From a virus, in the IMG/VR virus record IMGVR_UViG_3300018405_000018, positions 1-63,174 of that record: a stretch of DNA of 63,174 nt; one strand, given 5' to 3'. Position 1 is the first letter of the stretch. Every line of letters begins with the position of its first letter. The notes under the pieces were generated by a model. The model worked only from the letters and a program-made list of their open reading frames with translations, was not told the DNA's origin and searched no databases. Shown here piece after piece: positions 14,556 to 52,546 of this stretch. A program made the position numbers and the translations under genes.

Positions 14556-16037
14556 TTAACCATTTAAGGTAGCAGCAAACACAAAATCAACGTTGTTCAA
14601 TGAAGTATCAGCAACAGACGGTCCTACCAGCGTTAGAAGATCGCCTTGTGCGACTACGATCTCTGTTGAGGCTGAAAAAGTTCCAGTCGTGCTGCCAGCA
14701 CCAAACGTTACAGTACCTAGCTGAACATTGTGTCTCCGGAATGAAAATACACGTTGTGCAGTAGGACCTGCATCCGCACGGGCTAACGAGCCTGCAAAGT
14801 TAGCCGGAATTGTGAACGAGCGTGGTGACAGAAACCGTAAAATCTGCTGGTTAGTTGTTGTAAGACCACCAATCACGCTAGCAAACACGTCGTAAGGCAC
14901 ACCTTGAATTGATCCTGCTGAGCCTGTGTAGCCGATCGAACCTGTGTAGCCAGTTAGACCAATTGTACCAATCGCTGCGTCTACCCATTGTGCACTGTCG
15001 CCGTCAACGTAGTAAATCTTCAGTTGGCCGTCAACCGATGACCACCACTGATCGCCGGGTGCTGGATTAGCAGGAGGAGCAACGTCAATAAACGTTACAC
15101 CACGTGACCCCGTAAAGCCGAGTTCACCTCGCGAGCCAGTAAAACCCACGCCTTGAGAGCCAGTGAAACCAACAGAACCTGTGAAACCTGTCGGGCCAGG
15201 AACTTCAGATGCAGACCCAGTGAAACCTATGGATCCAGTGAAACCTATGGATCCAGTGAAACCCACAGATCCAGTGAAACCCTCAACACCTTGAGATCCT
15301 GTAAAGCCCCGCGATCCTGTAAAGCCTGTTGGACCAGCAACCGTCGACGCAGAACCGGTGAAGCCGATATCACCGCGGGAGCCTGTGAACCCAGCGCCAG
15401 CAGAGCCAGTGAAACCGATTGAGCCTGTAAAACCTAGATTCCCTCGTGAACCAGTGAAACCGCGAGAACCGGCAAAACCTATTGCACCCTGCGAACCTGT
15501 AAAACCTATAACACCAGCAGAGCCTGTGAAGCCGACACTACCCGTGAAACCTACAGAACCAGTAAATCCTGACCCTCCACCACCGCCTGTTGCACTGATA
15601 GTTATCGTTTGTGGATCTGCTAGGTTGTCTGTTGTAATTGTTACGTTGTTACCTGCAACTAATCTCAACGTATCGAGTCCTACTGCAGTCAATGTTCCCT
15701 GCCCACCAACCTCAATAAACTTAAACGTTGAATTCATGCCAACCTTGACAGCACCGCCGCCGAGATCGGTTATGTCAAACCCTGAAGCTGTATCAAAGCG
15801 CAACGATGTTGTAGTAATGTCACCCGGAAGCACAGTCATCCCGTTGATCAAGCCGACAGTTAAAGCAGCTGACGAACCAGTAAACCCGATAACACCACGA
15901 GATCCAGTGTATCCAACAGGACCTTGGACGGTTCCAGTTGTTAGCGCCCAACCCTTGCCGTTGTATATCCACGATCTCCCACCAAGAGAGTAAACATCAC
16001 CTACAGATGGCGATGAGGGAAAATCAATAAAAGACAT
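14556..16037 (-). CDS. Collagen-like GFTGS tail fibre with globular C-terminal domain
   Basis: 493 residues from the ATG at 16037; the longer frame begins at a TTG with no better ribosome site. The N terminus (FPSSPSVGDVYSLGGRSWIY) parallels the 1102-residue fibre. A globular module (SGFDITDLGGGAVKVGMNST, QGTLTAVGLDTLRLVAG) is shared with the 947-residue fibre. The Gly-X-Y region of GFTGS units and a WWSSVDGQLKIYYVDGDSAQ element follow. The last 115 residues (RFLSPRSFTIPANFAG to DFVFAATLNG) form a beta-rich tip of a type often seen at the end of phage collagen-like fibres. It is the last gene of a four-gene unit. Confidence 0.82.
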   Translation of the reverse strand: MSFIDFPSSPSVGDVYSLGGRSWIYNGKGWALTTGTVQGPVGYTGSRGVIGFTGSSAALTVGLINGMTVLPGDITTTSLRFDTASGFDITDLGGGAVKVGMNSTFKFIEVGGQGTLTAVGLDTLRLVAGNNVTITTDNLADPQTITISATGGGGGSGFTGSVGFTGSVGFTGSAGVIGFTGSQGAIGFAGSRGFTGSRGNLGFTGSIGFTGSAGAGFTGSRGDIGFTGSASTVAGPTGFTGSRGFTGSQGVEGFTGSVGFTGSIGFTGSIGFTGSASEVPGPTGFTGSVGFTGSQGVGFTGSRGELGFTGSRGVTFIDVAPPANPAPGDQWWSSVDGQLKIYYVDGDSAQWVDAAIGTIGLTGYTGSIGYTGSAGSIQGVPYDVFASVIGGLTTTNQQILRFLSPRSFTIPANFAGSLARADAGPTAQRVFSFRRHNVQLGTVTFGAGSTTGTFSASTEIVVAQGDLLTLVGPSVADTSLNNVDFVFAATLNG

Positions 16038-16076
16038 AGTTGGCAGCCCCAATCAAACGTGTTTGCAAGCTGCTAA

Positions 16077-21686: not shown

Positions 21687-21709
21687 ACTAACTGCTTGAT
21701 ATACATTTG

Positions 21710-21738
21710 TTGTCTTGGCAGAAAGTTTGTGGTACAAT
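21710..21738 (+). promoter_or_regulatory. Sigma70-like promoter for the glycosyltransferase gene
   Basis: TTGTCT, a 17-base spacer and TACAAT (4/6 and 5/6 to consensus), 28 bases before the ATG at 21767. No NATAAATA motif lies on this strand here, unlike the other plus-strand genes. Confidence 0.65.
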
Positions 21739-21766
21739 AACGCACGCTGTAGAACAAGGAGATTTT

Positions 21767-24700: not shown

Positions 24701-25141
24701 AACCTCGGCGTATTGTCTGATGTTGATGGCAAAGAACTGACATTCTACCAGAATACCACTCACCCTGGTGGTAACTCATACTACAAAGAGAACTCGGAAG
24801 TCAATCCTGTTGCTGATACGTATTTTAATGAAAAGCATGCTCGCAAGGTCAAAGCACGGACGCTGGATGCTGTTGTTGCTGAGAAGAAATGGCCGTTGCC
24901 TGATCTAATCAAGATGGATGTCCAAGGTGCTGAAATGGACGTGCTAAAAGGCGCCACAAACACGTTACAACAATGCGAACATCTGATAATGGAGCTCCAG
25001 AATGTTGAGTACAACAAAGGCGCTCCACTGAAAGATACTGTGATCGACTATCTGAAGACGATTGGTTTTGAGCCAGTTGGCGGAGGATTATTCTGTGCAA
25101 ACGGCGTAGACGGAGACTATCACTTCCGTAGAGTGAAATAA
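21767..25141 (+). CDS. Four-domain glycosyltransferase / FkbM-type methyltransferase fusion
   Basis: 1124 residues from the ATG at 21767, preceded by a perfect AAGGAG. Domain 1 (about 1-395) is GT4-like: GGSESAV at 25-31 and FPETFGISSLESL with the E-x7-E pattern. Domain 2 (about 437-640) is a GT2 domain: VVVSPVYNAEKYVEKCIRSV, VVDDRSTD, and DGDD near 528. Domain 3 (about 701-900) is a second GT-A-like domain with DSDMSFPPD near 765 and a VDGCGFGCVLVNSDVI segment. Domain 4 (about 930-1124) is FkbM-like: YDIGSCVL and KMDVQGAEMDVLKGA near 1048. Known roles of these families are sugar transfer and O-methylation of glycans. Substrate is unknown: phage fibres or host surface glycans are both possible. 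It stands alone on the plus strand with its own promoter and terminator. Confidence 0.85.
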   Translation: MTKVALIDVIGLTYDGTTLSKRGLGGSESAVILMSKELAALGFDVTVFNNCIDREAQEGVYDGVKYIDINRLRQPYDYQFDVVISSRTVFPFVREQDQPHIQYDCRHFRKLAEAAKLKIVWLHDTFCQGDHILEHMLVTGAIDEIFTLSDFHTTYVGTCDHGRKRMMEVTKRKIFMTRNGAMLYPGEVDIKAKDRNLFVYNASVTKGMIPLVNTVWPIVKRQIPDAKLKVIGGYYRFRENAAPDEQEKTWRQMVADPKYADLGIEFTGVIKQSEIAEILKQASFMIYPPAFPETFGISSLESLLYNTPLITSRFGALEETAIDQASYFTDYSATPNGLYPWIDENAQCVRIAELAIHAYHNPYLHQQKMYYCNIVKGIHGWDSVALQWKQHLYNKLGLYLSADEYRKVSYVNARVREVFGRRFSNPDDIYYPRNAQQRIVVVSPVYNAEKYVEKCIRSVASQDYDNWVMYVVDDRSTDTTFATAKKAAQIYGRDRVHVIRNEENKGAVYNHVSTILEHCKPDDVVMLIDGDDALVADNQIFHKYNNLYDGTTDFTYGSCWSMVDSIPLVAQPYPEHIKQARAYRQHKFNWNMPYTHLRTFKASLMLDNVDLSMFQDSNRKWYKAGGDGAVFYAMIERARPEAVKAIQDIVYLYNDINPLNDYKINGGEQTRAANEILNKKQGIAPSQSALKTQLTTTKPIMNKTILIAIPTNKYIEPDTFKSIYDLEIPEGYTTTFQYFFGYQVDQIRNLIAHWAERFDYLFAVDSDMSFPPDTLKKLLAHNKDVVSGLYIQRKPGQHILEIYRNGRNVPYQDIKGLGLVEVDGCGFGCVLVNSDVIRKIGYPQFVYKSALDHKDTFSEDTYFCMKAKQHGFRIWADTTIQCKHHGSSVFEVDNTIEQTPADRLRELGRIMLLPKPHVDHLFYMASCGIKPKVIYDIGSCVLHWTSVAKQVWPDAEFCLCEAMPEVEPIYNENGIVNYNLGVLSDVDGKELTFYQNTTHPGGNSYYKENSEVNPVADTYFNEKHARKVKARTLDAVVAEKKWPLPDLIKMDVQGAEMDVLKGATNTLQQCEHLIMELQNVEYNKGAPLKDTVIDYLKTIGFEPVGGGLFCANGVDGDYHFRRVK

Positions 25142-25188: not shown

Positions 25189-27372
25189 TTACAGTTGGAT
25201 TGGCATACCAATTTGGATTGCCAGAGATGTTGCAGAGAGGGCAATGCCAACTGGAGCAACGAACTGACCTTCGGTTGTCGGCACTGTTGTTGTAACAGCG
25301 CCAGCAACTGTCGGAGACAGGAAGTAGCGAGCACCTGCTGTCAGACCAGTCAGACCAGTCAGAGCACCTGCTGTAGCAACCTTGCCGGTCACGCCAACTG
25401 ATGTAACAAAGCCGATTACCTTCACAGCACCAGCCGCGTTAGCTTGTGCTCTAGCAACACCACCTGTGCCTGTTGCGTACACAGCATCACCAACAGCCAG
25501 ACCAGTTGTGTCAGCTGTGATTGTCGATGCAGCAGTGTCGATAGCAACGGTACCAGCAGCTGTCAGACGACCATCAGCACCAACGGTGAATGTTGGGATT
25601 GCTGTTGCGGAACCGTATGAACCTGCTGTAACTGTTGTGTTAGCGATAGAAACAACACCTGCTGTAGCTGTCAGACCTGTACCGATCTGTACAACACCTT
25701 TGGATGTTGCTGTTGCGTCGTCGACAGTGATTGTCAGTGTGTTGTTGCCGCCAACGGTGGTGCGAACACCTTGCGCGTTGTCGCCCAGGAAAGCAAACGT
25801 TTCACCAAGAGCCAACTGGTCCGTGGTTGTACCATCACCCAGAGTAACGCTGGTGCTTGCCAACATTGCGTTGGTGATAGCACCAGTACCGATGAACAGG
25901 CCATCAGCGTCTGTAGACAGACCACCAGAAGCTTTCAGTTTCAGAGCAAGAGTAGATGTTTCTGAAACTTGGTCAGGGGTGAAGTGCAGGCCACCAGTTG
26001 CAGCCAGTTCCACGTCCAGACGGTTACCTGTCTTAGACAGACCCAGACCAGCTGTAATCTGACCAGTACCTGTGAACTGAACCCAAGCTGTACCAGAGAA
26101 TACGTAACCGGTTTCTGTCGAGCTGTCGAACAGGGCGAAGCCATCAGTAGGCGTTACACCAGCACCCCAGCTCGAACCGTCGGAAGTGTAGATCCGGTTG
26201 TCTGTTGTGTTGACAAAACGTGTACCAGCTGCAGGAACTATGACAGGAAGAACAGCACCGATACCGGCCACTGGTTCTTGCCAGCTCAGGCCACCAGCCA
26301 GCGAGTCAACATAACCCTTAGTAGCAGCGTGCAGAGCAGTTGTAGGAGCAGCGTTCAATGTCAGGAAGCCTGTCATTGTATCGCCAGTTTTGCTTACCTT
26401 ACCGTCAATGTTTATCTGCAAATCTCTGTCAGCGGCTGCACGAGTAGATGCTTCAGCTGTGATGTTACCTTGCAGAGTTGTGTCGGCCTGACCGCGCGCG
26501 GTTGCTTCATTGCTGATAGCAGATGCGTTTGCGGCTACTGCTGCAGCCAACAGAACGTCAGCGTTGTTCAGAGATGTAGCAGCACTGATGTATGCGCTTC
26601 CAACATTTGCTACGTATGCGCCAGTATCAGACAGACCAGCACCAGCTTGTGTTGCGTCCAACTCACCTTGCAGAGCACCGACAGCGTTTGTACGAGCGGT
26701 TACTTCGTTGTTGATGGATGTTTGCAGAGCACCGTCAGCAGTCGTGCGAGCTGTTTCTTCAGCTTTCAGAGCTGTGTCGAGAGTTGTCAGGGCAGAACGG
26801 ATTGTCAGAGTGCCTGCTGACAGACCAGCCAAATAGTTTGAACCTGTGAATGCTGTTAGTGCACCTTCTGTTGTTAGACCAACAGAAGCTTCGATTGCGT
26901 CGATTTGCGACTGCAGATCTGTGCTACCAGTGGCGGCGGCGGCGGCAACGGCGTTGATAGCGCCAACAATAGATGTAGCACCTGCAGCAGAGTTAGTGAA
27001 TGTAACACCTGTCAGAGTGCCGTCAAGAGCTGTACCAATAGACAGCTGTGTAGCGTCCAACTCACCCTGCAGAGCACCGACAGCGCTTGTACGAGCGGTT
27101 GCTTCAGCGTTGATGGCTGTTTGCAGTGCTGTGTCAGCGCTTGCGCGGGTGGAAGCTTCTGAAGCTAGGTCAGCATCGAGTTCGTTGATAGCAGCAACGA
27201 GGCTTGTCTTAGCTGTTGTTGTCAGCAGCGTCAGGTCACCAGTACGTGACGTAACGAACGGTTGGGTAGCGGCTAAATCACCATTAACCAGACCAAATAC
27301 GGTATCTCCGCTTTGCAGCTGTTGCAGTTCCCCGGTTAACGGGTTTAATACGAGAACTTTTCTAGTAGCCAT
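25189..27372 (-). CDS. Coiled-coil-rich tail fibre protein (727 aa)
   Basis: ATG at 27372 with AAGGAG eight bases upstream. The N-terminal half carries at least four copies of a helical repeat ([58 protein letters not shown]), spaced by V/I-G-A-x-Q-G-E-L-D-A-T-Q segments; this is a long parallel coiled coil as in whisker or long-fibre shafts. After it come [20 protein letters not shown] and GYVDSLAGG, a classic fibre hinge. A beta-rich C-terminal part includes [18 protein letters not shown] and a [20 protein letters not shown] module shared with neighbouring fibres. Ends in QIGMPIQL, similar to the end of the next protein upstream (EPPIQL). Single-gene unit. Confidence 0.8.
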
Positions 27373-29387: not shown

Positions 29388-32300
29388 TTACATCAACGAA
29401 TAACGTGTAATCCACGGCGATGCTGCAGTAAAGCTACCTGATTGGCCCATAGTTACCACACCTCCTGTGTTCGTTACAGTGGTGCCTGTAATAGCTTGAA
29501 CGCCGCCGGCACCATTATATCTGGTGATTACAGGTACCATCATTGTTGTCAGGCTTGCGTCTCCGTTTGGATCGGTGTATCGAACGAAGAAAGCGGTGCC
29601 TGACGGAATGAAAGAGGCTGGTGTGTGTATTGTTATTGTCTGTAGTTTAAACGTGGCTGGAATATTATCAAACCTGACTGTATCTCCGAACACACCCGCT
29701 TGATCAAGACGAACGGTAATCGCGTCGATGTCTGTTTGTGATCCGTAACCAACAAGATGGATGTTTGCAGTTTGATTCCCTGCAGCGTTCTGTATCGTCA
29801 TTTTACGTAGCACGACTGAAGCTCCGCCTGATCCGCCACCACCAGGAACGTTAACTGTAACAGCCCCGCCGCTATTTGTTGCAGTAACACCCGCACCCGT
29901 GAAGTTGATTGACGTAGCGCCTGTCGTCAACGAAGTGCCTTCGTCCAGAACAGCCAGAGCGCTTCCGCCGCCTCCACCAGGAATGTTGACAATCACACCA
30001 TCTGTTGACGATGTTGCTGTAACGCCAGCACCTGTGAAGTTTATGAACGTTGGAGCGGTGTGAACAACAGTTCCTTCGTCTTGAACGGCAAAGTTTGTTG
30101 TTCCAGACGAGCCGGTGAAGCCTTGAATACCCTGCGATCCAGTGAAGCCAGTCGCACCAGCAGGACCTGCAGAACCTGCAGAACCTGTAAAACCAGTTGG
30201 GCCAGCAGGTCCTGCAACCGTAGAGGTGGAGCCCGTGAAACCAGCACTGCCTGTGAAACCTACACCAGCACTGCCTGTGAAACCTTGTGAGCCATTGAAA
30301 CCTTGAATACCCTGTTGACCAGCGCTACCTGTAAAGCCGGCACCAGCACTACCTGTGAAACCAACTGAACCAGTGAAACCGTTCGTGCCTGCACTACCAG
30401 TAAAGCCGGCTGCACCTGCGCTACCAGTGAAGCCTGCACCAGCAGAACCAGTGAAACCAACTGAGCCGGCTGGTCCTGCAACGCCTGCACTACCAGTGAA
30501 ACCAGTGGCGCCAGCGGAGCCTGCAGGACCTGCGCTACCAGTGAAGCCTGTGGCGCCAGCAGAACCAGTAAAGCCTTGAATGCCTTGTTGACCTGCCGAA
30601 CCCGTGAAGCCAGCGCCGGCACTGCCTGTGAAACCAACTGAACCGGCAGGACCAGCTGCTCCTGCAGAACCTGTAAAGCCGGTTGCACCGGTGGAACCTG
30701 TAAAGCCGGTTGCACCAGTCGTTCCAGCTGCTCCTGCAGAACCAGTGAAGCCCGTAGCACCAGCACTACCTGTAAAGCCAGCACCAGCACTACCCGTAAA
30801 GCCAGTAGGTCCAGCAACTGTTGATGCAGAACCAGTGAAACCTGTTGCACCTTGAGGTCCTTGTGGACCAGTCACACCTTGTGTTCCAGAAAGGTCGGTT
30901 ACATATGAGTAAGCGGTGCCATTCCACAGATACAGTTTAGCATTATCTACATCGTTGACGTTGCCTGTTTCAATAATCGCAAACTGGCCTGATGCAATGC
31001 CAGTAGGCGCTGTGTCTGCAGTTAATGCAGCGACAGAAGCGTATACTTTTGCAATCGTGAATCCAATACCAGTGTCGCCTTTGGAACCTGTGAAACCGAT
31101 TGCACCTTGTGAGCCCGTAAAACCTACAGAACCTGCCGAGCCTGTGAAGCCTGTGCCTGCCGAGCCTGTGAAGCCTTGAATACCTGCAGTTCCTGCAGAA
31201 CCAGTGAAACCAGCACTGCCGGTGAAACCTGCTGTGCCTGATGGGCCTGCTGGTCCAGTGGACCCAGTAAAGCCTATTGCACCAGAAATACCTTGTGAAC
31301 CTGTGAAACCTGCATCACCACGCGAACCAGTGAAGCCTGCACCAGCAGAACCAGTGAAGCCTTGCGCACCAGGAGCGCCGTTTGTTCCAGCGCTTCCTGT
31401 GAATCCTGTGTCTCCACGAGAGCCTGTGAACCCAGCGCCAGCGGACCCAGTGAAACCGATTGAACCTGTGAATCCTGTTGCGCCTTGAGCGCCTGCCGAG
31501 CCTGTGAAACCAAATCCTGACGGTCCTTGCGAGCCAGTAAAACCACGCTCACCGGACAGACCTTGTGCACCATCTGCTCCAGCAGAACCGGTGAAGCCTT
31601 GGGATCCTGTGTAGCCTTGAGAGCCCGGACCAGTCACAACAGAAGCAATCTGTGCGTCAACGTATGCTTTATTAACAACTGATGTTGGCAATAATGGTGC
31701 ATCAACAATATCAATCTTCAATCCAGCAGGAACAAAAATGTCACCTGTCGTAACACCTGCCAGTTCAGTAATCCCACCACCTGTTCCTGGAGCACCACCG
31801 AGCATTGTTGTTGATGCTCGCATCATAATGGCGTGACGATCGATCACTGTTGCGACGGGTACTGGCGGAATCGCTGGTGTTAATGTTAAGGCACCGTATT
31901 CATCAACGTATAAAGGAGCGTTGATTTCTGCACCAGCAGCAAGCCAGTCCCAAGCACCATTGTAGATAACACCATCCAACGCAACGTTAATGAAATCGCC
32001 CGCTGCAGCATCAAACTCAATGATACCGTACGTCACCTGGGTAATGTTATGCGGGCTTGCAGCGATAACTTTGTTGTAGTCGGAGAACTGAACAATCGTG
32101 TGAGACGGCATTGATTCTTCTGCTTCTGCACGAAGTTGTACCGATCCGAGCTTAACTTGTGTGCTGTTAGCAATCCCTGTAACAGCATAGTCTTCTGTTG
32201 TGAAGTATGTGCCGTCTTTCTTCTTTAGAACGCCACCAAAGTTGTCATAGATCAGTGCACCCGCGTGAGTTGGACGGATGATACCAACTTGTGTGCCAGT

Positions 32301-32750
32301 AAACACGCCAACGTTGTTGCTCATACTGACAAACACGCCACCCTGCGTCAGTTGCGCTGCGAACACGCGAATCACACGCTGCCATCTGTTAGCAGCCGCA
32401 ACATACACTTTCATCTGGCCAGACGATGTGTCAAACCAATGTTGGTCATTTGCTGCGTTTGCTGGTGGGGTTGGGCCTTCAACAGGCTCTAACAACGTGT
32501 GTCCGAACGAACGAGCACCAGTGACAAGGTGCATATCCCAGTACAGCCAGTAGTTTGTACCAGAAACAAAAGGACCAGCCCACGCATTTGCTACAGTTTG
32601 TTTTTCAGAAAGCAAATAATCAGACGATCCGTCAGCAAATGCAACCAATACGGTGTCGTTAGGCGGGACTTGCAAAGATACTGCTGATCCAGAACGAGAT
32701 AAAAAGTTCGCTGGTGCACGGACCAAGCCTTGTCTAAAGTCGATTAACAT
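29388..32750 (-). CDS. Fibre with baseplate-anchor-like N terminus and collagen-like GFTGS shaft (1120 aa)
   Basis: The N-terminal 330 residues (LIDFRQGLVRAPANFL, YWLYWDMHLVTGARSFG, NDQHWFDTSSGQMKVY, IRVFAAQL) are homologous to the start of the 1334-residue neighbour, pointing to a shared virion attachment domain. About 420 residues of GFTGSAG repeats follow, interrupted by one YASVAALTADTAPTG module. Next come two copies of a LDEGTSLTTGATSINFTGAG element, which recurs as VQDEGTVVHTAPTFINFTGAG. The final 130 residues (VVLRKMTIQNAAGNQTANIH to SPWITRYSLM) form a globular tip. First gene of a three-gene unit behind the only fully canonical TATAAATA in the fibre block. Confidence 0.83.
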   Translation of the reverse strand: MLIDFRQGLVRAPANFLSRSGSAVSLQVPPNDTVLVAFADGSSDYLLSEKQTVANAWAGPFVSGTNYWLYWDMHLVTGARSFGHTLLEPVEGPTPPANAANDQHWFDTSSGQMKVYVAAANRWQRVIRVFAAQLTQGGVFVSMSNNVGVFTGTQVGIIRPTHAGALIYDNFGGVLKKKDGTYFTTEDYAVTGIANSTQVKLGSVQLRAEAEESMPSHTIVQFSDYNKVIAASPHNITQVTYGIIEFDAAAGDFINVALDGVIYNGAWDWLAAGAEINAPLYVDEYGALTLTPAIPPVPVATVIDRHAIMMRASTTMLGGAPGTGGGITELAGVTTGDIFVPAGLKIDIVDAPLLPTSVVNKAYVDAQIASVVTGPGSQGYTGSQGFTGSAGADGAQGLSGERGFTGSQGPSGFGFTGSAGAQGATGFTGSIGFTGSAGAGFTGSRGDTGFTGSAGTNGAPGAQGFTGSAGAGFTGSRGDAGFTGSQGISGAIGFTGSTGPAGPSGTAGFTGSAGFTGSAGTAGIQGFTGSAGTGFTGSAGSVGFTGSQGAIGFTGSKGDTGIGFTIAKVYASVAALTADTAPTGIASGQFAIIETGNVNDVDNAKLYLWNGTAYSYVTDLSGTQGVTGPQGPQGATGFTGSASTVAGPTGFTGSAGAGFTGSAGATGFTGSAGAAGTTGATGFTGSTGATGFTGSAGAAGPAGSVGFTGSAGAGFTGSAGQQGIQGFTGSAGATGFTGSAGPAGSAGATGFTGSAGVAGPAGSVGFTGSAGAGFTGSAGAAGFTGSAGTNGFTGSVGFTGSAGAGFTGSAGQQGIQGFNGSQGFTGSAGVGFTGSAGFTGSTSTVAGPAGPTGFTGSAGSAGPAGATGFTGSQGIQGFTGSSGTTNFAVQDEGTVVHTAPTFINFTGAGVTATSSTDGVIVNIPGGGGGSALAVLDEGTSLTTGATSINFTGAGVTATNSGGAVTVNVPGGGGSGGASVVLRKMTIQNAAGNQTANIHLVGYGSQTDIDAITVRLDQAGVFGDTVRFDNIPATFKLQTITIHTPASFIPSGTAFFVRYTDPNGDASLTTMMVPVITRYNGAGGVQAITGTTVTNTGGVVTMGQSGSFTAASPWITRYSLM
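30885..31072 (-). repeat. 188-bp fibre module, copy in 1120-residue fibre
   Basis: Encodes GIGFTIAKVYASVAAL...LYLWNGTAYSYVTDLSG, nearly identical to the copies in the 1102-residue fibre almost 17 kb away. Confidence 0.78.
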
Positions 32751-32806: not shown

Positions 32807-35800
32807 TCAGATGATGTCATTCATGAACAGCGTTGCGTTATACTTAAAGGTAGTGTTAGCAGTGAATGGTGTTGTAATCGTTGTCTCTGCATAGATTTCA
32901 ACTTGAGCCAAGGTGGAGTTGTAGAGAGCAGACCATTGAACAAACGCTGTGCCAACACTAGTGTGTGTTAGATACACATTACCGGCATCATCATAAGCAG
33001 CATACAGCTCAGCCAAGCAAGTATCTTCAGATCCGTAGTTGCGAACGTTAACAAGGTATTTTCCTGCTGTAAACTGGGCGATAGCAAAACTATCAACCAT
33101 TATTGGCAGATTGCTGTTGTGTGTAAACTTACCGTTGCGAACAACTGTAACATCACCGAATGTCACCTCGCTGTCAACTTGGTTTAGGTTGGTTGATCCG
33201 TTCCATGTAGCTACAACTTTGTTGGGGTGAAGGCTAGTGATCCATATTGGATCGGCATAGCTGCCGTTTGTATACACACCGTTGGTTACTGTAGAGGCGT
33301 TGCCGAGAATGCTGATATCCCACGTTCCTGTTGCTCCTGTGCCGTTTAGCGGAACACCACCAAGGTTAGACAGTGCTGCAGGCGCCGTACTTGCTCCTGT
33401 GCCGCCCTGAGCAATCGTCAGTACGCCTGTGATTTGTGCCGCAGGAATGTCGTTAACTGTACCCCACGTATTTGCTGCTGTTCTAACAACGTATCCAGTC
33501 GTTGACAAGTTTTCTACAGCGGCGAGGTCATCAGCAAGCGATAGTGATATTGAACCAGCGGTCGTGATTGGACCACCAGAAATAGCCAGGCCCGGTGATG
33601 TTGTTGTCACGTTGACGGATGTCACTGTTCCGTTGCCGCCTTGTGGGAAAATAATCTGGGCCCAGTTTGCTATGTTTGTCGGATCTTCGTTAACAAGAAT
33701 GAACGTAGAACTCAAATCTGAGCGGATAACGATGTCACCGCGCGTGGCCGACAGTCCAAGCATTTCTGCTTGTGTAGTAACCGTAAACGTTCTTGTTCTA
33801 ACATAGTCAGGCAGCTGCACAGCAGGAACCTTTCCTGTCATGTCAAGACCTGCAACTGTGACGCCAATATCAACAGGCTTCAAATATACGCCATCGTGGT
33901 TGTGAATCAGCGGAGCAGCATCGGTAATACCGTAACCAGCTAGTGTTGTTGGTGTGTTAGTGATTGCAGACCAGTTCCACGTCTTAGCATCAACTTCTGC
34001 TTTTGTATACGCGTTGATGATTCCATAACCAGCCAACGTTGTCGGGCGGTTAGTGATTGCAGACCAGTTCCATGTCAGCGCTTGTGTTTGTGCTTGTGTA
34101 TAAGCATCCGTAATCCCGTAACCAGCAAGCGTTGTTGGACGGTTAATGATTGCAGACCAGTTCCACGTCAAAGCGTTAACTTGCGTCTGGGTATATGCAT
34201 CAGTAATCCCATAACCAGCGAGTGTTGTCGGTCTTCCTGTTATGCCAGCCCACGGTACTGTGTTTGCAGACGCTGCGTTGATGTTCCAGTTACCAAATGC
34301 TCCAAAACCGTTTGTAAGAGCAATCGTGCCAATGCTGTTTGGCATATTGTACGTGATTGTTGAGCCGGAAGTGATATTGCCAGCCTCAAACTTAAACCGT
34401 TTGGTTACATCTAACGCGTCAACAACAGTGAAGTTTGCATCACGGACTGTGGTCGTGTTTGTATCGTCAAATGTTTTTCCTGAAATCACGGTCGGCAATG
34501 CAGCGTTGTCCAAGCCAAGAGCGGACCAGTTTGTTCCGTTCCAGTGCAAGATGTCGCCAACGTTCTTTACGGATGTGTTGACGTCCTCCAACAATTCCAG
34601 TCTGTGGTTGTGAGCCAGTGGGGCAGCATCAGTAATCCCATAACCAGCGAGCGTTGTTGCCACATTTGCTTTTGTCGCTAAGAACGTATCAACTTCTGTC
34701 TTGGAATAGATGTCAGTGATTCCGTAACCAATATAACTTGTTGGACGGTTAGTGATCGCAGACCAGTTCCACGTCAGCGCGTCTGTTTGTACACGGGTGT
34801 ACGCGTCAGTGATCCCGTATCCTGATATCGTTGTTGGGCGGCCAGTTATTCCGGTCCAAGCAACCGATGATGCGGCTGGGACTGTTCCCGAAATGTCAGA
34901 GCCAGGAATTTGATTAAGGACGGAATACGTTGTTCCATTTCCTTTCAGGTAGCCAGAGACGGATGATAGTCCTGTACCGCCGTTACCCATCGGCAAAACG
35001 CCAACAACAATCCCCGAACCTGCGTTCAGATCTACTGGACGAACTTCCCAAGTGTCAATCCCAATCCTATGTGCAACACCAGTGCCTGAAATGTTTTCCA
35101 GTGCAGCAAGGTCGTTAGCAAGAGAAAGAGAAATCGTTCCGCTGCTGGTTACAGGACCGCCTGTTGTGACAATCCCCTGTTGTCCTGCAGCAGGTGTGAC
35201 GTTGACCCACACAACACCGTCCGGACGTGTTAGTAACTCTTGCCAATCGCCAATCAATGTAGGGTTGGAGCCCCGAAGAACGTACGTGATTCCTTGGTCA
35301 GTGCGAACTGCAAGATCACCCGTTTGTGCAGTCAGGCTGAGCATCTCTGTTTGCGACGAAACAACAAACGTGTTGGAGATTGCCATAGGAGGCAGTTGGC
35401 TTATTGTGATTTTGCCTGTTGCATCAAGAGTAGCGACGCCGTTTGCAGCACCCCGTTGTGATTTTTCAACAAACAGATCAACATATTGTTTTGGAGCAGC
35501 CGCGAGGTCGTGTGTTGGATTACCACTCAACAGTAGAGGGCCTGTCATCGTGTCGCCAGCACGTCCCACCTTAGCGCTTTCCAGGTTTTGCAGCGAGGAT
35601 TGAACCGTGCCCGTAATGTTTGCGCCAAATGGAGCGGGAATTACATCCTCTGCTGTGTGAGTGTGAGGAAGTGGGAGCCGCGGATCAGACAGACGAGGAT
35701 CGTTAGTTTCAACAGCATATGGTGAACCCGGATCGGTCGGCGTTGCTGTTAACTTTACCTTGCCGAGTTCAAATTGTGTTGCCGCTTCACCGACCCCGCC

Positions 35801-36811
35801 ACCGGCAAGAGCGCTATCACCCTTCTCACCTTTGCCGCCGAGCCCTTGGTCAAAGATGATTGTGTGACGACCGATCACACGAGCAACAGGTGCTTTCGCG
35901 ATGTTAAAAACAACAACGTCTGTTGTGTGTGGATCGGTCTCAGTTAGTTGGCCGCCTGTAGAAACCCACAGAGGAGCACCAACGACATGCCAGTTCCACT
36001 CCGGGTTAGTGATTGTTCCTTGTACTACAAATGTGCCAACATCATCACGCTGAACACCCTGCATTGCAATCGCGATGGCGCTATTTTGCAGGTCGTGGTA
36101 TGACGCGAGAGCAGTTCTGCCAAAATCAACAAACTTAACAACTTGATAGCCAGCGATATTCTCAATAGGCGATGCTGTTAGGACGTTTGCTTCTAGGCGA
36201 ATCGTGTTGATTGGTGAGCCATTAACGAAGAAATCATCTTCGGTGGTGAAGAACTGATTGTTGCTCTTTGTGATCGGGCGGCCTGTGTTGTCAACGATGA
36301 TCCTTCCGACGTTGACTTGCTCACCTTGAATACCAACTTGTGTTCCGTCAAATCTACCAGAAGTGCTGAGAACACTAACGCTGATGAATGTAGCAGATCC
36401 TGGATTGTATTCAGCAGCAAAAACACGAATCTTTTCTTGCCAGCGGGCACCATTCCATACCTTCATCACGTTGTAGCCGGTGTCAAACCAGTGTTGGTCA
36501 ACTTCAGGGCTAGCAGGCGCGGACGGTTGGAACATCGGCTCAATATCCGTAAAGCCGAATGTTCTAGCACCTGTCAGATTGTTAATGTCCCAGTACAGCC
36601 AAACAGGGTAAGGATCGGTGAAGGGGCCCCAGGCATTTGAAACTGAAGTGGCTTCTGTGAGAAGGTAGTTTGACTGCTTGTGAGCAAAAGCAACATCTGT
36701 AACGCCGTTTGTTGTACTCAGTGAGACATACTGGCCTGTAGGGGCAAGAAATTGCTGGGCACCGCCTGATGACGGATATGAAATGATACCCTGACGGAAG
36801 TTGATAATCAT
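32807..36811 (-). CDS. Very large tail fibre with WNW/YGITD repeats (1334 aa)
   Basis: The longest gene in the window. The N terminus (IINFRQGIISYPSSGG, VWLYWDINNLTGARTFGF, DQHWFDTGYNVMKVW, IRVFAAEYNPG) is homologous to that of the 1120-residue fibre. The shaft has at least seven YGITDAY/YGITDAA units alternating with LTWNWSAITNRPTTLAG, two copies of a T-x-A-E-M-L-x-L-x-A-x-x-G-D-x-x-I-R-S/T-D module, and repeated SGTISLSLANDLAALENISG/STTG elements. The C terminus (FTAGKYLVNVRNYGSEDTCL, then FKYNATLFMNDII) is a jelly-roll-like tip known from phage proteins of this size. Long tail fibre shaft plus tip is the best reading. Confidence 0.82.
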   Translation of the reverse strand: MIINFRQGIISYPSSGGAQQFLAPTGQYVSLSTTNGVTDVAFAHKQSNYLLTEATSVSNAWGPFTDPYPVWLYWDINNLTGARTFGFTDIEPMFQPSAPASPEVDQHWFDTGYNVMKVWNGARWQEKIRVFAAEYNPGSATFISVSVLSTSGRFDGTQVGIQGEQVNVGRIIVDNTGRPITKSNNQFFTTEDDFFVNGSPINTIRLEANVLTASPIENIAGYQVVKFVDFGRTALASYHDLQNSAIAIAMQGVQRDDVGTFVVQGTITNPEWNWHVVGAPLWVSTGGQLTETDPHTTDVVVFNIAKAPVARVIGRHTIIFDQGLGGKGEKGDSALAGGGVGEAATQFELGKVKLTATPTDPGSPYAVETNDPRLSDPRLPLPHTHTAEDVIPAPFGANITGTVQSSLQNLESAKVGRAGDTMTGPLLLSGNPTHDLAAAPKQYVDLFVEKSQRGAANGVATLDATGKITISQLPPMAISNTFVVSSQTEMLSLTAQTGDLAVRTDQGITYVLRGSNPTLIGDWQELLTRPDGVVWVNVTPAAGQQGIVTTGGPVTSSGTISLSLANDLAALENISGTGVAHRIGIDTWEVRPVDLNAGSGIVVGVLPMGNGGTGLSSVSGYLKGNGTTYSVLNQIPGSDISGTVPAASSVAWTGITGRPTTISGYGITDAYTRVQTDALTWNWSAITNRPTSYIGYGITDIYSKTEVDTFLATKANVATTLAGYGITDAAPLAHNHRLELLEDVNTSVKNVGDILHWNGTNWSALGLDNAALPTVISGKTFDDTNTTTVRDANFTVVDALDVTKRFKFEAGNITSGSTITYNMPNSIGTIALTNGFGAFGNWNINAASANTVPWAGITGRPTTLAGYGITDAYTQTQVNALTWNWSAIINRPTTLAGYGITDAYTQAQTQALTWNWSAITNRPTTLAGYGIINAYTKAEVDAKTWNWSAITNTPTTLAGYGITDAAPLIHNHDGVYLKPVDIGVTVAGLDMTGKVPAVQLPDYVRTRTFTVTTQAEMLGLSATRGDIVIRSDLSSTFILVNEDPTNIANWAQIIFPQGGNGTVTSVNVTTTSPGLAISGGPITTAGSISLSLADDLAAVENLSTTGYVVRTAANTWGTVNDIPAAQITGVLTIAQGGTGASTAPAALSNLGGVPLNGTGATGTWDISILGNASTVTNGVYTNGSYADPIWITSLHPNKVVATWNGSTNLNQVDSEVTFGDVTVVRNGKFTHNSNLPIMVDSFAIAQFTAGKYLVNVRNYGSEDTCLAELYAAYDDAGNVYLTHTSVGTAFVQWSALYNSTLAQVEIYAETTITTPFTANTTFKYNATLFMNDII

Positions 36812-46876: not shown

Positions 46877-47188
46877 ATGACAAGAGGAATGTTGATCGCC
46901 GTACTCAACCAACGAAAAGTATTTACCGAGACGGGTAAGGTTAGCCCGCGTTACCTTGACATATTGTATGCAAAGCCTGCGTTATTGCAGGAGATTTTGT
47001 TGCATACGCAGTTCCTGAAATACAATGCTCCGATCAAAGCACGGCTGAGGTGCTTGCGAGATGGAATTAGTGAGCAGCCGTTGTGTCAATGCGGAACGGT
47101 TTTGCAGATGAGAGAAACAGGAAGGTTTGCTGGAACATTCCCGTCAAGCTGTTCTAATAAATGTTCAGCAGCAAAGCGGTTTATCTAA
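46877..47188 (+). CDS. Small zinc-finger protein, homing-endonuclease-fragment-like (103 aa)
   Basis: ATG at 46877 with GGAG upstream. The first 60 residues are helical (SPRYLDILYAKPALLQEILL). The end carries CQCG, 17 residues, then C-S-N-K-C (LCQCGTVLQMRETG, SSCSNKCSAAK), a C-x-C-G...C-x-x-x-C treble-clef-like zinc site. The same C-x-C-G...C-S-x-K-C arrangement is common in phage homing-endonuclease-associated proteins, where a nuclease domain normally follows. Here the protein stops right after the finger, so it may be a remnant or a stand-alone DNA-binding factor. It is inserted between gp15 and gp18 on the opposite strand, and its stop overlaps that of gp15 by 8 bases. Confidence 0.55.
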   Translation: MTRGMLIAVLNQRKVFTETGKVSPRYLDILYAKPALLQEILLHTQFLKYNAPIKARLRCLRDGISEQPLCQCGTVLQMRETGRFAGTFPSSCSNKCSAAKRFI

Positions 47189-47951
47189 TCCCAACATTGG
47201 CACCATTTGCAATCTCTTCATAGTCAATACCAAGATCATCCAATGCGGCAATCACATCTCCACTCTCTCGGATTGCATTATTGACGACACCAAGACGCAT
47301 TCGGATGATCTTGATGAAATCAGCTCGGACATCCGCAGGAGAACCAAGATAAACAGGCATCTCAAACATCACTGTGCTCTGGATGATACGACGGTCGGTA
47401 CCGATGGGATACTGCTGGTCAATGTTAATGCTTGTCAGCTTGACGGTGGTTAAGCGTGTCCAGTCAAACGGTGCATCACTGATCTGAATGACCAACTGTG
47501 GATCGAACAACATTAGAATCTGCTCCATGATCTGAAAATGTTGGTCAGTGTTGCTTGCGTAGATCCCAAGCTGGACGGTCATCCTGTATGGAACGGGAGC
47601 GCGTTGATGAACGACCTTGACATCATCAGGCAGTAGCCCACCCGTTGGAACATAGCTGTTCCTCCGTTCAACACCAATACCATGCATCAAATCGGGTGCT
47701 ATGTCAAGGTTCTGCATGTATGCAGTCATCATCGGCAAGCGAATCGGCTTGTTTTGTGTGTTGTCCGCCATCAATGCAGCGACAACACGATCGTGGTTGC
47801 CGTAGTGGATTGTTACAGGAATCAACGACTCTTGTCCTGTCTGCTCGTTGCGACCGATCTGAACTTGTAGACCACTGAAGATCGTCATAAACTGAATGAT
47901 GTAACGCTTCAGTTGGTCATTGTACCAATACGCTTGTTTTGGGATTGCCAT
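47181..47951 (-). CDS. gp15: Tail completion / sheath stabiliser protein
   Basis: 256 residues, near T4 gp15 (272). Hallmarks are YWYNDQLKRYIIQFMTIFSG at the N terminus, VTIHYGNHDRVVAALMADNT, RAPVPYRMTVQLGIYASNTD, QIMEQILMLFDPQLVIQISD and VMFEMPVYLGSP. In T4 it caps the finished tail and joins it to the neck. It is the last gene of a gp13-gp14-gp15-like unit, as in T4, with 11- and 3-base gaps inside the unit. Confidence 0.93.
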   Translation of the reverse strand: MAIPKQAYWYNDQLKRYIIQFMTIFSGLQVQIGRNEQTGQESLIPVTIHYGNHDRVVAALMADNTQNKPIRLPMMTAYMQNLDIAPDLMHGIGVERRNSYVPTGGLLPDDVKVVHQRAPVPYRMTVQLGIYASNTDQHFQIMEQILMLFDPQLVIQISDAPFDWTRLTTVKLTSINIDQQYPIGTDRRIIQSTVMFEMPVYLGSPADVRADFIKIIRMRLGVVNNAIRESGDVIAALDDLGIDYEEIANGANVGIR

Positions 47952-47962
47952 TGTCTGTCCTC

Positions 47963-49516
47963 TTATTTGATGTCATCAACACCAGTTCTGTTTGGTGCTA
48001 TCAGGTATTCATTCAGAAGAGCCTTCTGGTTGTTGTATTGCTGACGACGGTCTGTCTCGAGGTAAATCCATCGTGTTTTCTTCTCTGACCAGCGATATAA
48101 CCGAGCTGGAACGTTCTTTGCTAGACCAACGTACGTCAGACGGTGGAAATCGCCATCTTTTGGATTTTCAGGATACTCTGGCCCTTCTGTGAACGGAGCG
48201 TTGTTAGACGGCAGTGCATCCTCAACGAACAACCCTCTCGGATTGAAACCAAACTTGTTGATGTGTGGCGCGCCAGCTTCTGCAGCAGTTCTCAGTTCTT
48301 CTTGCGAAAACTCACGGATTGTGTTTGAGCCCTCAGAACCACGCGCTGGCACACCTTCCAATGCTGTTTGTGCAATCTGCTCGTTCACCCCTGTGAAGTC
48401 TTGCCACATTGGGTGGTCGCCTTCGTCTTGATCGAACAGACCAGACGAATCAATCGCTTTAGCCAACTTCCCAAAGATGTCTTGCGTCTCTTGAGAAGCA
48501 AGCGCTGGTTGAGCGGTGACAAGCAGCATTAGCGGTTGCCATGTCGGTGTATATGAATCAGCATCCCATGTGACATCTGTCACCTCAAGATATCGTTTCA
48601 TGGCCCTTAGGTCAGGTGTGTATTGTGTTTCGCTTGGCAACTCTATGATGTCACCGATCACAACAGGCCGTCCAAGTTGTGCAACGATAGAGTTGAAATT
48701 CAACTTGATATTGTATGTTGCTGACGGAATCTCAATGCCAAATCGCGTCAATTCTGTTTGCGGGCTAATCAGGTTGTAAAACCCTTTAACCAGTACAGGA
48801 TCCTGCGCGTAGTCTCGATCGCGGTTTTCCACGAAGATTTTGTCTTGGATGTTGTTAAGAGCAGTTGCTGAGAAATCGTGCATTTCGAATGCCTGAACAC
48901 CCCAGCTGTCGCACTCATCACCTGTAAAATCAAGAGGACGGAGTCGCCAGTATCTGTTGATTACGGAGTGCTTGATGTGAATCGTGTTCAGATTATCATT
49001 GTTTGGCAGATTGACGATTGCCACACCAAACCACTGCGATCCGTTTTGTGACCGCTCAACTCGCGCCTTCGTTACACGCATGTTTGGATTAGCACTCTGT
49101 TTGATCTTGATTGTAGTGATCATGTGGCGAACGTGAGCGTCAATGCCGTACCGCTGACGGCCTGTTTGAATTCGTAGGATGCCGAAGTCATAACCAAGAT
49201 ATGCAGATGCTACGATTGCTGCTTCACCCGTCTGTTTTGATCTCCACTCCGTTCTTGTTTTTTGAAACGCGTACTTAGCGAGATACTTTGGAGCATCACC
49301 ACCTGATATTGGAGAGCCGTTTTTTGCCAAGTCAATCAAATCGGTTTGCTCGTGAACACCAAGCAGTTTATAGATGTTCACTTGAGCACCTGCAATCGCC
49401 AATGCTTCTTGGCTCTGTTGGTCCATAAAGCACGTGTCTATGCTCTGGGTCATATCCCAGGGCTTGCACGGCGTAAATTGTGATGCAGGTGGGCAGCAAT
49501 CTTTTCTGTTTTTCAT
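47963..49516 (-). CDS. gp14: Neck protein, gp14 candidate, with discoidin-like insertion (517 aa)
   Basis: About twice the length of T4 gp14 (256). A cysteine-rich N terminus (CCPPASQFTPCKPWD) is followed by a stretch that resembles an F5/8 type C (discoidin) fold: DFGILRIQTGR, ITTIKIKQSANPNMRVTKAR, SQNGSQWFGVAIV, NRYWRLRPLDF. The gp14-like part follows: ELTRFGIEIPSATYNIKLNF, VVIGDIIELPSE, MKRYLEVTDVTWDADSY and QPALASQETQDIFG. A polar C-terminal tail of about 130 residues has a GDFHRLTYVGLAKNVPARLY element. Position between gp13- and gp15-like genes supports the assignment. The discoidin-like part could bind carbohydrate or be an extra collar decoration. Confidence 0.62.
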   Translation of the reverse strand: MKNRKDCCPPASQFTPCKPWDMTQSIDTCFMDQQSQEALAIAGAQVNIYKLLGVHEQTDLIDLAKNGSPISGGDAPKYLAKYAFQKTRTEWRSKQTGEAAIVASAYLGYDFGILRIQTGRQRYGIDAHVRHMITTIKIKQSANPNMRVTKARVERSQNGSQWFGVAIVNLPNNDNLNTIHIKHSVINRYWRLRPLDFTGDECDSWGVQAFEMHDFSATALNNIQDKIFVENRDRDYAQDPVLVKGFYNLISPQTELTRFGIEIPSATYNIKLNFNSIVAQLGRPVVIGDIIELPSETQYTPDLRAMKRYLEVTDVTWDADSYTPTWQPLMLLVTAQPALASQETQDIFGKLAKAIDSSGLFDQDEGDHPMWQDFTGVNEQIAQTALEGVPARGSEGSNTIREFSQEELRTAAEAGAPHINKFGFNPRGLFVEDALPSNNAPFTEGPEYPENPKDGDFHRLTYVGLAKNVPARLYRWSEKKTRWIYLETDRRQQYNNQKALLNEYLIAPNRTGVDDIK

Positions 49517-49519
49517 ATC

Positions 49520-52477
49520 TTATCCAAATATGATCGTAGAGTTCAGGCCCCAGTCTTCTGGTGTATCCGTGACAAAGTCAAAGATACTACCCATGCACTG
49601 GTCCTTGTCCTGCTGTGCTTGCGCGCGCAAATCGTTTGCGTTCAACGAGACACCACCACCTGCTCCTGGTAATGTCACATACTTACCACGAGTGTTAGCA
49701 AGGATTAGCATCGCTTCTGCTGTTGCCCATTTTCTGATCCACGGGCCAGTAATACGGTCAGACATTAGTTCTTGTTCAGTTCGTTCAACCGCAGCATCAA
49801 TCAAACACAAGCGCTCTGCAAACGGGAATCTGTGGTGGATCCACAATTCACGCGTTTGCTCATTCCAATTGTACGTGATACGGCCAGCAAACAGGATCTC
49901 GAGGTTCTTTGTGTATTCTGTCATAATGTGATATGACAGCAAGTCAAACGTCCCCATGTTGTACAAGTGTTGGAGAACAATTTGTCCGTATACGCCTGCC
50001 CCGTGTGCTGACGATAGAAATGCTGATGTTAATCTATGAACTCCAAGAACATTAACGATCTTGTTCATTCCTGATATTTTGTTGGTCAGCAAATATTTCT
50101 GTGTGTTACCGTGAACTTGCAAAAAGAAGAACCCTCTTTTGTACGCTATCGAAGAGTTTGCTCTTAGTGTACTGATTGCACGATCAATTGCAAAATCAAG
50201 CTGCTCAGGTTGCAGTTCTACATCAACTGTTGGATATCCGAGCGCATAGCGAATGCCGTTTTGCATTGCTAGTCGTTCATCGTGTGTCCCATCAGTTCCA
50301 ATCCCCACTTCATTGTATAGCGGTTCTGACGATACACCGTCTGTTCCCGGCTCTGGGTTATCAATGCGGAATTGGTGTGTTAGCGCATCAAACAAGTCAA
50401 TGTTTTCAATGCTAGCCCATGACAAAGACCCTGGTGTTGTGTCTGTGAAGATGAAGTTGCCGTTGCAGTTGAATTCAACTTTCAACAATGGTTTACCGAA
50501 CACCCATTCATGGCCATTCCACGTCATCAGTTTGTTGGATGTTGTGTCAAACCACATTGCTGATTTTGCTGGTGTTAGCGGTTTTATAGAATATGTGATT
50601 GACACCCAAGCAGCGCCGTTCCACATTTGCAGCGCTTGGGATGTAGGGTTGTACCACATCGTTCCCGCAGCAAGGTTATTCGGATCGGTCTCAGCAAAGG
50701 TAACGTCAATCGGATCCCACCCTGCTGACGTTTTAACAAACCACAGATCGTTTGTTGTATCATGCCAAACGTATCCGTCAGGAATAGTCGTCCTCGGATC
50801 CGTTACAAACATCAAAAACGGAGTTGATATAAAGCAGTTATTCTGCCAATAGTGCAATTTGTTTGTTGACGGATTGTACCACAGTTCGCCTTCTTCAAAT
50901 GCTGGTGGGTCTGTAGGGTCTGTTGGCTGTTGATAAAAATCAACAACGGTTACCCAAACGCTGTTGACACCGTCCCACACCTTGATGGTGTCTGTTGTTG
51001 TATCCCACCAGTTAGAGCAGTATTCAACGACCGTTGGGTCGCTTTCAAACACGATCAGATCAACTGTCGTCCATGCTGTGTCAGCAACGTTGCGTTGTTT
51101 TAACACCATCGTCGACGGATTGTACCACAGTGTTCCTGCTACTACCGTCAGTGTAGGCTCTGTTTCAGCAATCCTTGCTGTTGAAAGTTCATTCCATCCG
51201 ATACCAGGTGTGTTATAAGCAAATAGTTTATTGATTGTCGTGTTGAACCAATACGTACCATCAGACAGTTGGTTTGGTGCTTGTGAATACTGAACAGCGT
51301 TAGCGGAGACCCACATTTCGCGCTTGTCATCCCACGATGATAACTCAAACGTTTGTGTGTTATACCAAAACGATCCGCATGGTGCTGGACGATATAGTGA
51401 CGGATCCGTTGTTCCTATATGCGTCGTGTGTTGACACCACGCGTTCCCCGACCACGTGTGTCCAACAGTGCTGTTAAACCAATATACACCTTCACACTCA
51501 GGAACTGATGGGTTCGTGTGGTAGTTGATCACAGGGGTTGTCAGCCATCCAGCACCATTCCAGCGTTTTAAAACGTTGGCTGCTGTGTCGTACCAGAATG
51601 ATCCATTAACCACACCGTTTGGTGCTGACGTCTGGACGATTACATTTACATCAGTATGGCTATGTCCATCCCACACTTGCAACCTGTTGGTTTTGCGATC
51701 AAAGTAGTAGCCACCGGTATTTGGAGGGGTAGGGCCTTGAGGAGGGTCGTCAACAAGCTGTAACTGAATGTTGATTGCGTCCAGCAGGTCGTCGTATGTT
51801 TGTGCTTGCGCACCCTCAACTTCTATCGTGTATGAAAACGGTGTTGGCACACATTCTTGTGAACCAACAGGACGTTGAGGTCTAGGTACTAACCCCCTGC
51901 GGATCTTGAACGAGTATGTTGTTGCCGCATCAAGGCCTGTCGCATCTGTTGGTTCAATCCCACCCTCACGACTTGTATCCGGCGCAAAAACAACAACTTG
52001 TGTACCGTTCGTCGGTTGTGTACCATCTTGTTTGTAGTCTAGCGAGTAGGCATGAACGCCTTCTTTGTAATATCTATGTTGACAGTCAACAGGAAAGCCA
52101 GAAACAAAATACGCTGTATTCTCTTGCAGACCGGAAACATCAAGGAATGTGGAGTGTCTATCCTCGTAGAACGCTCCCACAACCTTAGAAGTTCCAATCA
52201 TATCGCCAGCGAAAAGGTTACTGTCACCCGTAGGATCGCTGCTGTATACGGTACCGCTTACAGGCAGTTTAGTGCTGTTGTTGCTTGTTGTATCCAGGGT
52301 GATCACGATTCCGCAATATGCTTGCGTTTCTGCTGTGCACCCAGCCGCCGGACGAGGAATATTCCACGACACGCGAGCGGTATCTGGTCCTGTTCTGTCA
52401 AATTTTAGCGTGATCCCCATTGCCTCTGTGCGAAGGGCACCTGGCGCATCATTCCTGATATCTAGCAGTGACGTCAT
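49520..52477 (-). CDS. gp13: Neck protein gp13-like fused to a long W-repeat array (985 aa)
   Basis: ATG at 52477 after GGAG. Residues 1-240 look like two fibronectin-III-like domains (KFDRTGPDTARVSWNIP, NTAYFVSGFP; GLDAATTYSFKIRR). Residues 256-660 hold eleven repeats of 34-43 residues with the core G-x-x-W-Y/F-D/N-x-x-T-x-x-L-x-x-W-x-G-x-x-W (for example GELWYNPSTNKLHYW, GTMWYNPTSQALQMW). Residues from about 735 on are the neck domain: VDVELQPEQLDFAIDRAIST, RGFFFLQVHGNTQKYLLTNK, GPWIRKWATAEAMLILANTR. T4 gp13 (309 residues) joins heads to tails; this protein is three times longer because of the N-terminal array. The array is probably exposed on the virion collar. Confidence 0.72.
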   Translation of the reverse strand: MTSLLDIRNDAPGALRTEAMGITLKFDRTGPDTARVSWNIPRPAAGCTAETQAYCGIVITLDTTSNNSTKLPVSGTVYSSDPTGDSNLFAGDMIGTSKVVGAFYEDRHSTFLDVSGLQENTAYFVSGFPVDCQHRYYKEGVHAYSLDYKQDGTQPTNGTQVVVFAPDTSREGGIEPTDATGLDAATTYSFKIRRGLVPRPQRPVGSQECVPTPFSYTIEVEGAQAQTYDDLLDAINIQLQLVDDPPQGPTPPNTGGYYFDRKTNRLQVWDGHSHTDVNVIVQTSAPNGVVNGSFWYDTAANVLKRWNGAGWLTTPVINYHTNPSVPECEGVYWFNSTVGHTWSGNAWCQHTTHIGTTDPSLYRPAPCGSFWYNTQTFELSSWDDKREMWVSANAVQYSQAPNQLSDGTYWFNTTINKLFAYNTPGIGWNELSTARIAETEPTLTVVAGTLWYNPSTMVLKQRNVADTAWTTVDLIVFESDPTVVEYCSNWWDTTTDTIKVWDGVNSVWVTVVDFYQQPTDPTDPPAFEEGELWYNPSTNKLHYWQNNCFISTPFLMFVTDPRTTIPDGYVWHDTTNDLWFVKTSAGWDPIDVTFAETDPNNLAAGTMWYNPTSQALQMWNGAAWVSITYSIKPLTPAKSAMWFDTTSNKLMTWNGHEWVFGKPLLKVEFNCNGNFIFTDTTPGSLSWASIENIDLFDALTHQFRIDNPEPGTDGVSSEPLYNEVGIGTDGTHDERLAMQNGIRYALGYPTVDVELQPEQLDFAIDRAISTLRANSSIAYKRGFFFLQVHGNTQKYLLTNKISGMNKIVNVLGVHRLTSAFLSSAHGAGVYGQIVLQHLYNMGTFDLLSYHIMTEYTKNLEILFAGRITYNWNEQTRELWIHHRFPFAERLCLIDAAVERTEQELMSDRITGPWIRKWATAEAMLILANTRGKYVTLPGAGGGVSLNANDLRAQAQQDKDQCMGSIFDFVTDTPEDWGLNSTIIFG
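50498..51712 (-). repeat. Eleven-copy W-Y/F-D/N protein repeat in the neck protein
   Basis: Repeat cores start near residues 258, 294, 332, 370, 409, 450, 489, 532, 569, 607 and 641. DNA copies are diverged, so the array is old rather than a recent slippage product. The same core occurs singly in the collagen-like fibres (LWFDTTNGRLKIWF). Confidence 0.8.
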
Positions 52478-52503: not shown

Positions 52504-52511
52504 TATTTATG
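52504..52511 (-). promoter_or_regulatory. Late-type promoter CATAAATA
   Basis: CATAAATA on the minus strand, 26 bases before the gp13-like ATG at 52477 and directly after the terminator at 52521-52546. Confidence 0.72.
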
Positions 52512-52520
52512 ACGCAGCAA

Positions 52521-52546
52521 AAAGAAAAAGGCTCTTGCGAGCCTTT
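52521..52546 (-). terminator. Rho-independent terminator after the 57-aa gene
   Basis: Stem AAAGGCTC/GAGCCTTT with a four-base loop, followed on the minus strand by TTCTTTTT; it begins two bases after the stop at 52548. Confidence 0.85.

Follow-up and report, generated by a model that had tools for sequence, protein, structure and literature searches.

The gene at 49520..52477 on the minus strand of the window (the whole 63,174-nucleotide stretch analyzed here, IMG/VR virus record IMGVR_UViG_3300018405_000018) begins with an ATG codon, matches PHROG_211 and encodes a 985-residue neck protein of the Ad2 (T4 gp13) type. T4 gp13 (structures 9mkb, 9mof and 9lu4–9lu7) is a homologous adaptor domain with the equivalent place in the gene order, before the gp14-position gene and gp15, but it has 309 residues and no N-terminal extension. 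What precedes the neck domain in this protein, how is it built, and what could it do in the virion? A sequence-only reading had described two FnIII-like domains and eleven repeats with a W-Y/F-D/N core placed ahead of a gp13-type C-terminus, the repeats projecting from the collar to bind host glycans or to serve as a whisker-like sensor.

Identity of the neck domain

The PHROG_211 profile ("head-tail adaptor Ad2") covers residues 8–968 (E 2.6e-169). This profile has 976 positions, about the length of the XacN1 protein; the full-length score would reflect likeness to XacN1-like long forms, with the Ad2 name resting on the C-terminal part. The neck adaptor domain itself occupies residues 733–985 (49523..50281, minus strand), and the record has no second neck-domain match. 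A profile built from twelve such domains matches the solved T4 gp13 structures 9mkb and 9lu4 in the PDB (E 8.8e-16), and the same profile detects gp13 in the T4 genome (E 8.7e-12). A profile was required, as a phmmer search of the PDB with the single neck sequence gave no match. The curated gp13 family of Pfam, PF11649, had no match over the window and was silent on its control too. In a Foldseek search with the full-chain model, T4 gp13 chains were the top matches (probability 1.00) at modest TM scores; the model of the neck domain is weak in parts, with pLDDT below 50 in stretches of residues 819–846.

The order of the genes agrees with this assignment. Necks of Virfam Type 2 are encoded in the order Ad2-Hc2-Tc2 (PMC4362835). 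Here three consecutive genes are found: the Ad2 neck gene, then, after 3 bases, a gene for a 517-residue protein in the gp14 (head-closure) position (47963..49516, minus strand), and then the gene for the tail sheath stabilizer gp15, or Tc2 (47181..47951, minus strand; PF16724, E 4.9e-41). Homology of the 517-residue protein to gp14 was sought and not detected. It belongs to a family with an F5/8 type C (discoidin-like) domain, which is matched in 11 of 13 relatives, while the window's own copy falls below the cut-off. In RaK2 and PA5oct its conserved core adjoins a gene whose annotation reads tail sheath or sheath stabilizer, and is itself annotated as a structural protein. The PA5oct record reports mass-spectrometric detection of this structural protein and lists that phage's homologue of the neck domain, likewise by mass spectrometry, in the virion. 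Because profile, Foldseek match and the Ad2/gp14-position/gp15 gene order concur, the C-terminal ~250 residues are identified as a T4 gp13-type neck adaptor (Ad2, Virfam Type 2), as had been proposed from the sequence; the comparison with gp13 and other neck proteins that was called for at that time gave a match to T4 gp13 by both profile and fold.

Exactly one copy of the neck domain was found in each of nine records, the window and eight related ones, four of which are phage records titled complete genome. In XacN1, RAS14, three further records (G001, G002 and G003) and the window, the sole copy is the long form, so that no other gp13-type protein was detected in XacN1 and RAS14.

The WYD repeat array

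Eleven W-Y/F-D/N cores, at residues 257, 295, 333, 371, 409, 451, 490, 533, 571, 608 and 642, are spaced by 34–43 residues. The corresponding repeats, all on the minus strand, are repeat 1 (residues 251–288, 51614..51727), repeat 2 (289–326, 51500..51613), repeat 3 (327–364, 51386..51499), repeat 4 (365–402, 51272..51385), repeat 5 (403–444, 51146..51271), repeat 6 (445–483, 51029..51145), repeat 7 (484–526, 50900..51028), repeat 8 (527–564, 50786..50899), repeat 9 (565–601, 50675..50785), repeat 10 (602–635, 50573..50674) and repeat 11 (636–661, 50495..50572). Significance was assessed with leave-one-out HMMs against 1,000 shuffles per repeat; nine of the eleven outscored every shuffle, and the two degenerate ones, repeats 3 and 9, were equaled by 6 and 16 shuffles, respectively. 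Between phages, repeat 3 is strongly conserved despite its degeneracy within the protein, and conservation is highest in repeat 7. An HMM trained on 293 repeat segments recovered all eleven, so that the count proposed earlier was confirmed. The same HMM finds one or two copies of the WYD repeat in the collagen-like fiber genes at 11155-14463 and 14556-16052, with weak single copies in 25189-27372 and 32807-36811; the occurrence of the core in the fibers of this phage had also been noted correctly.

Searches for known families gave little. The neck protein had no match in NCBIfam, and DUF7360 (PF24059) scored 22.5 bits, below its curated cut-off of 27.6, over one repeat only. Matches of the array profile to the OCRE domain of RBM10 (E 0.17) and to Toxoplasma TLAP2 (E 0.29) were not significant, and both were rejected as kin of the array.

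An AlphaFold model of residues 176–706, computed with 28 sequences, had a mean pLDDT of 90 and a pTM of 0.51 (0.43 for the whole chain). The structure prediction that had been suggested for the repeats thus yields, for every one of them, a beta-meander of three or four short strands, while the predicted placement of one repeat relative to the next is not reliable. Matches of the array to PDB folds are local and mostly resemble beta-propeller blades, with probabilities of 0.38 or less, mostly below 0.25, and rmsd values of 20–60 Å. A closed beta-propeller gains no clear support: the blade-like matches are local, and in other proteins one or two repeats suffice.

Strong structural matches were found in BFVD, where the array matches Orpheovirus proteins, several of them named collagen-like (E 2.4e-23 to 3e-14, probability 1.00). 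Since the rmsd is large, the likeness lies in the modules and not in the overall shape. In giant viruses, Orpheovirus among them, predicted structures of collagen-like proteins correspond to the WYD array one module at a time, but these are proteins of eukaryotic viruses in which no neck domain is known. A surface module of a phage is thereby linked to giant-virus collagen-like proteins. As a separate observation, BFVD also holds WYD-like arrays in proteins, several named collagen-like, from Orpheovirus, Fadolivirus, Yasminevirus and Hokovirus.

Probable insertion of the array into a single domain

The segments that flank the array, residues 176–243 (51749..51952, minus strand) and residues 662–706 (50360..50494, minus strand), are most likely the two halves of one domain between which the array has been inserted. 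This conclusion comes from a relative, L033, in which the whole domain is inserted within repeat 7 as an extra, uninterrupted complete copy (residues 535–640). A junction profile, in which both flanks were joined and the array omitted, was built from 24 other proteins; it scored 43.7 bits across the junction of the continuous copy, while the best of 2,000 shuffles reached 13.9, and either flank half alone also matches that copy. The continuous domain of L033 matched neither a phage record at E 0.01 nor a Pfam family. If the array is nested in this way, its two ends should lie close together, and anchorage at both ends makes a free-ended whisker less likely.

The remaining part of the extension carries an FnIII-like domain at about residues 20–150 (52028..52420, minus strand; boundaries approximate). 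Foldseek with the whole chain returned FnIII matches (124 columns, TMt up to 0.76), whereas with residues 176–706 alone none of the 50 matches listed was to FnIII; residues 1–175 are therefore the most likely source of the similarity. The two FnIII-like domains originally placed before the array are consequently reduced to one: the first is FnIII-like by fold, but the second is a half-domain whose other half lies past the array. A tandem of two complete FnIII domains was rejected, as the second is the split domain, which contains a helix and is without a Pfam match.

Relatives and the series of neck forms

The same layout extends over the full length in ORF268 of the Xanthomonas phage XacN1 (36% identity) and in the Stenotrophomonas phages RAS14 and CM1 (34%); across these relatives (34–37% identity) the eleven repeats are in register. 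RaK2, PA5oct, GAP32, 121Q, XaC1 and others have the neck domain only. The short Ad2 necks of RaK2, 121Q, GAP32 and PA5oct share the C-terminal domain at 25–30% identity but consist of 250–268 residues with nothing ahead of it. A scan of IMG/VR gave 43 loci, mostly long forms of 876–1126 residues, some ended by contig ends, and a second scan gave further two-repeat forms. Most two-repeat forms have open frames of 657–724 codons, with additional sequence at the N-terminus. By HMM, eleven repeats are present in most long forms, eight in L035, thirteen in L026 and two in the intermediate form; counts of nine or ten in some relatives may reflect degenerate repeats that were missed.

In a tree of 40 neck domains, the short (5), two-repeat (9) and long (26) forms each occupy one side of a branch, with support of 89/63 for the long form and 100/99 for the short and two-repeat forms. 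The long form is thus a single change on the neck-domain tree, and its frame is intact down to about 30–35% identity. One neck family therefore presents a series with no repeats, two repeats and about eleven repeats; in this way a phage could incorporate an appendage into its connector rather than recruit one.

The family is already known by annotation, as PHROG_211 and as unnamed proteins of XacN1 and RAS14, where the neck proteins are annotated as hypothetical; that of CM1 is unannotated. The open-access papers searched contained no neck protein with such an extension, and neither the nesting of the array nor the series of neck forms is described in the papers found. The earlier remark that no neck protein of this layout had been described holds for published descriptions, as no paper found describes it, but not for the layout itself, which is present in XacN1, RAS14, CM1, many IMG/VR contigs and PHROG_211. 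The cultured phages XacN1 and RAS14, in which the gene is still called hypothetical, offer a concrete target for testing.

Homing-endonuclease-like genes were seen directly after the neck gene in several of these loci: at 9821-11824 of L003 (RaK2), where it is annotated as such, and, by a look at the sequence only, at L009 4751, L024 13207, L040 11288, L044 3096 and L047 11354.

Evolution of the array

Repeats of the same index in different phages resemble each other more closely (mean score 48.8) than do different repeats within one protein (29.2), so the array appears to be old and position-specific and not recently amplified. In close pairs, dN of the array is 2–3 times that of the FnIII domain, or more relative to the neck domain; no part of the protein evolves more slowly than the FnIII and neck domains. 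Where omega could be computed it was 0.01–0.23, a rough figure since dS is near saturation or saturated in many pairs; it points to purifying selection over the full length wherever an estimate was possible. The array is probably relatively free and exposed, and the near-invariant tryptophans of its repeats would represent a structural core.

A possible built-in collar

T4 gp13 binds fibritin through its domain III, residues 193–238 (PMC12270204). In the alignment of the neck profile to gp13, however, T4 segment 189–240 faces only about 10 profile positions, so that the fibritin-binding domain III is missing in this family. No match to Fibritin_C (PF07921, the foldon) was found in the window, a genome fragment, or in the eight related records, with a positive T4 control. 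The short-neck phages RaK2 and PA5oct are likewise without a Fibritin_C match; the absence therefore does not track the long form or tie the array to the loss of fibritin. The candidate identity of the neck protein as a fibritin or whisker protein was rejected, as Fibritin_C was not found. T4 fibritin (whiskers and collar) and the neck fibers of A-1(L) are neck appendages as well, but they are separate trimeric proteins that bind the neck and are not fused to it. Neck protein 1 of phage Milano (gp14) is also an adaptor ring with a peripheral beta-rich domain and a collar around it, but it has 199 residues and its collar consists of other proteins crosslinked by disulfides.

We propose, as a reading somewhat more probable than its negation, that the extension forms a covalently attached collar around the neck, outside the ring. 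The C-terminal domain most likely forms a twelve-membered ring between the portal and the head-closure protein, and ahead of it would be fused the FnIII-like domain and the small domain with its eleven nested beta-meander (WYD) modules. An extension of roughly 700 residues would have to lie outside the ring, since twelve copies of about 80 kDa cannot fit the channel; by this reasoning the earlier placement of the array outside the neck gains support. The job of the collar is most likely mechanical, to brace the head-tail joint and/or to offer a docking surface for fibers, and it would take over the task for which T4 gp13 recruits fibritin through domain III. A more specific arrangement, to which we give a little less than an even chance, is that the twelve subunits contribute 132 WYD modules, each array looping out from one domain and back to it, and that these form a belt, closed or folded back on itself, around the head-tail joint in place of gp13 domain III and fibritin.

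An adhesin or sensor role, in which the array would stand out from the neck and bind glycans of the host or the environment, seems unlikely; the original suggestion was of this kind. The WYD module does recur in the collagen-like fibers of the window and in giant-virus collagen-like proteins, and the neighboring gene encodes a discoidin-like domain; sugars or surfaces are frequent ligands of that fold. The array is also the fastest-evolving part of the protein; this makes ligand binding possible and, as a purely mechanical role would not require it, counts against the collar. However, the array has no match to a carbohydrate-binding family, and its PDB fold matches are the low-probability, mostly propeller-like ones described above. 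The number and identity of the repeats are largely fixed by position, mostly at eleven position-specific orthologues with near-invariant tryptophans, and a single domain holds the array at both ends. For A-1(L), no host binding was seen with a neck fiber that does carry a carbohydrate-binding module (PMC10966104). The proposed glycan binding is thus left without direct support, and nesting in one domain, with both ends tied, makes the free projecting whisker less likely.

Two other explanations keep the extension close to the head or dispense with it. In one, which we also consider improbable, the extension folds against the portal vertex, binds the major capsid protein and bridges the 12-to-5 symmetry mismatch. 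The beta-sandwich of Milano gp14 and the swing domain of T4 gp13 make such contacts with the capsid (PMC10491603, PMC12270204), and slowest evolution of the FnIII and neck domains would suit a clamp, but in T4 and Milano the contact comes from a domain inside the core, whose equivalent region is still present within the C-terminal 250 residues here, and eleven extra modules far exceed the need. In the other, the extension is split off as a protein of its own, or was fused by chance, and only the C-terminal domain acts in the neck. Short necks do work alone in RaK2, PA5oct and their relatives. This explanation is nevertheless very hard to reconcile with a long form confined to one side of a branch (89/63) by one change on the tree, with a frame kept intact and apparent purifying selection over the whole length where estimable, and with the finding of no second neck gene in the same records.

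Putative late promoters and neighboring genes

An octamer resembling T4-type late promoters, CATAAATA, lies at 52504..52511 on the minus strand, about 26 bases upstream of the neck start codon. The consensus of T4-type late promoters is TATAAATA. The octamer matches the pattern HATAAATA, which occurs 20 times in the window, where 2.6 sites are expected; all lie on the minus strand, many of them a short way upstream of structural genes, and the set looks like T4-type late promoters. Further upstream, at 52527..52546 on the same strand, is a hairpin resembling an intrinsic terminator, a candidate by pattern match.

The large collagen-like fiber proteins encoded at 11155-14463, at 29388-32750 and by neighboring genes on the minus strand (Pfam Collagen, E 4.5e-98 and 2.2e-53) are rich in GFTGS-type repeats. 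Between fiber genes, on the opposite strand (21707-25141, plus), lies a gene whose product of 1144 residues combines two glycosyltransferase domains, one of group 1 and one of family 2, with an FkbM methyltransferase domain. Virions of XacN1 carry glycoproteins (PMC5852040), and by analogy the fibers of the window might be glycosylated. A further fiber-like protein, encoded at 7810-11058 on the minus strand, ends in a C-terminal Peptidase_S74 intramolecular chaperone (E 2.7e-17).
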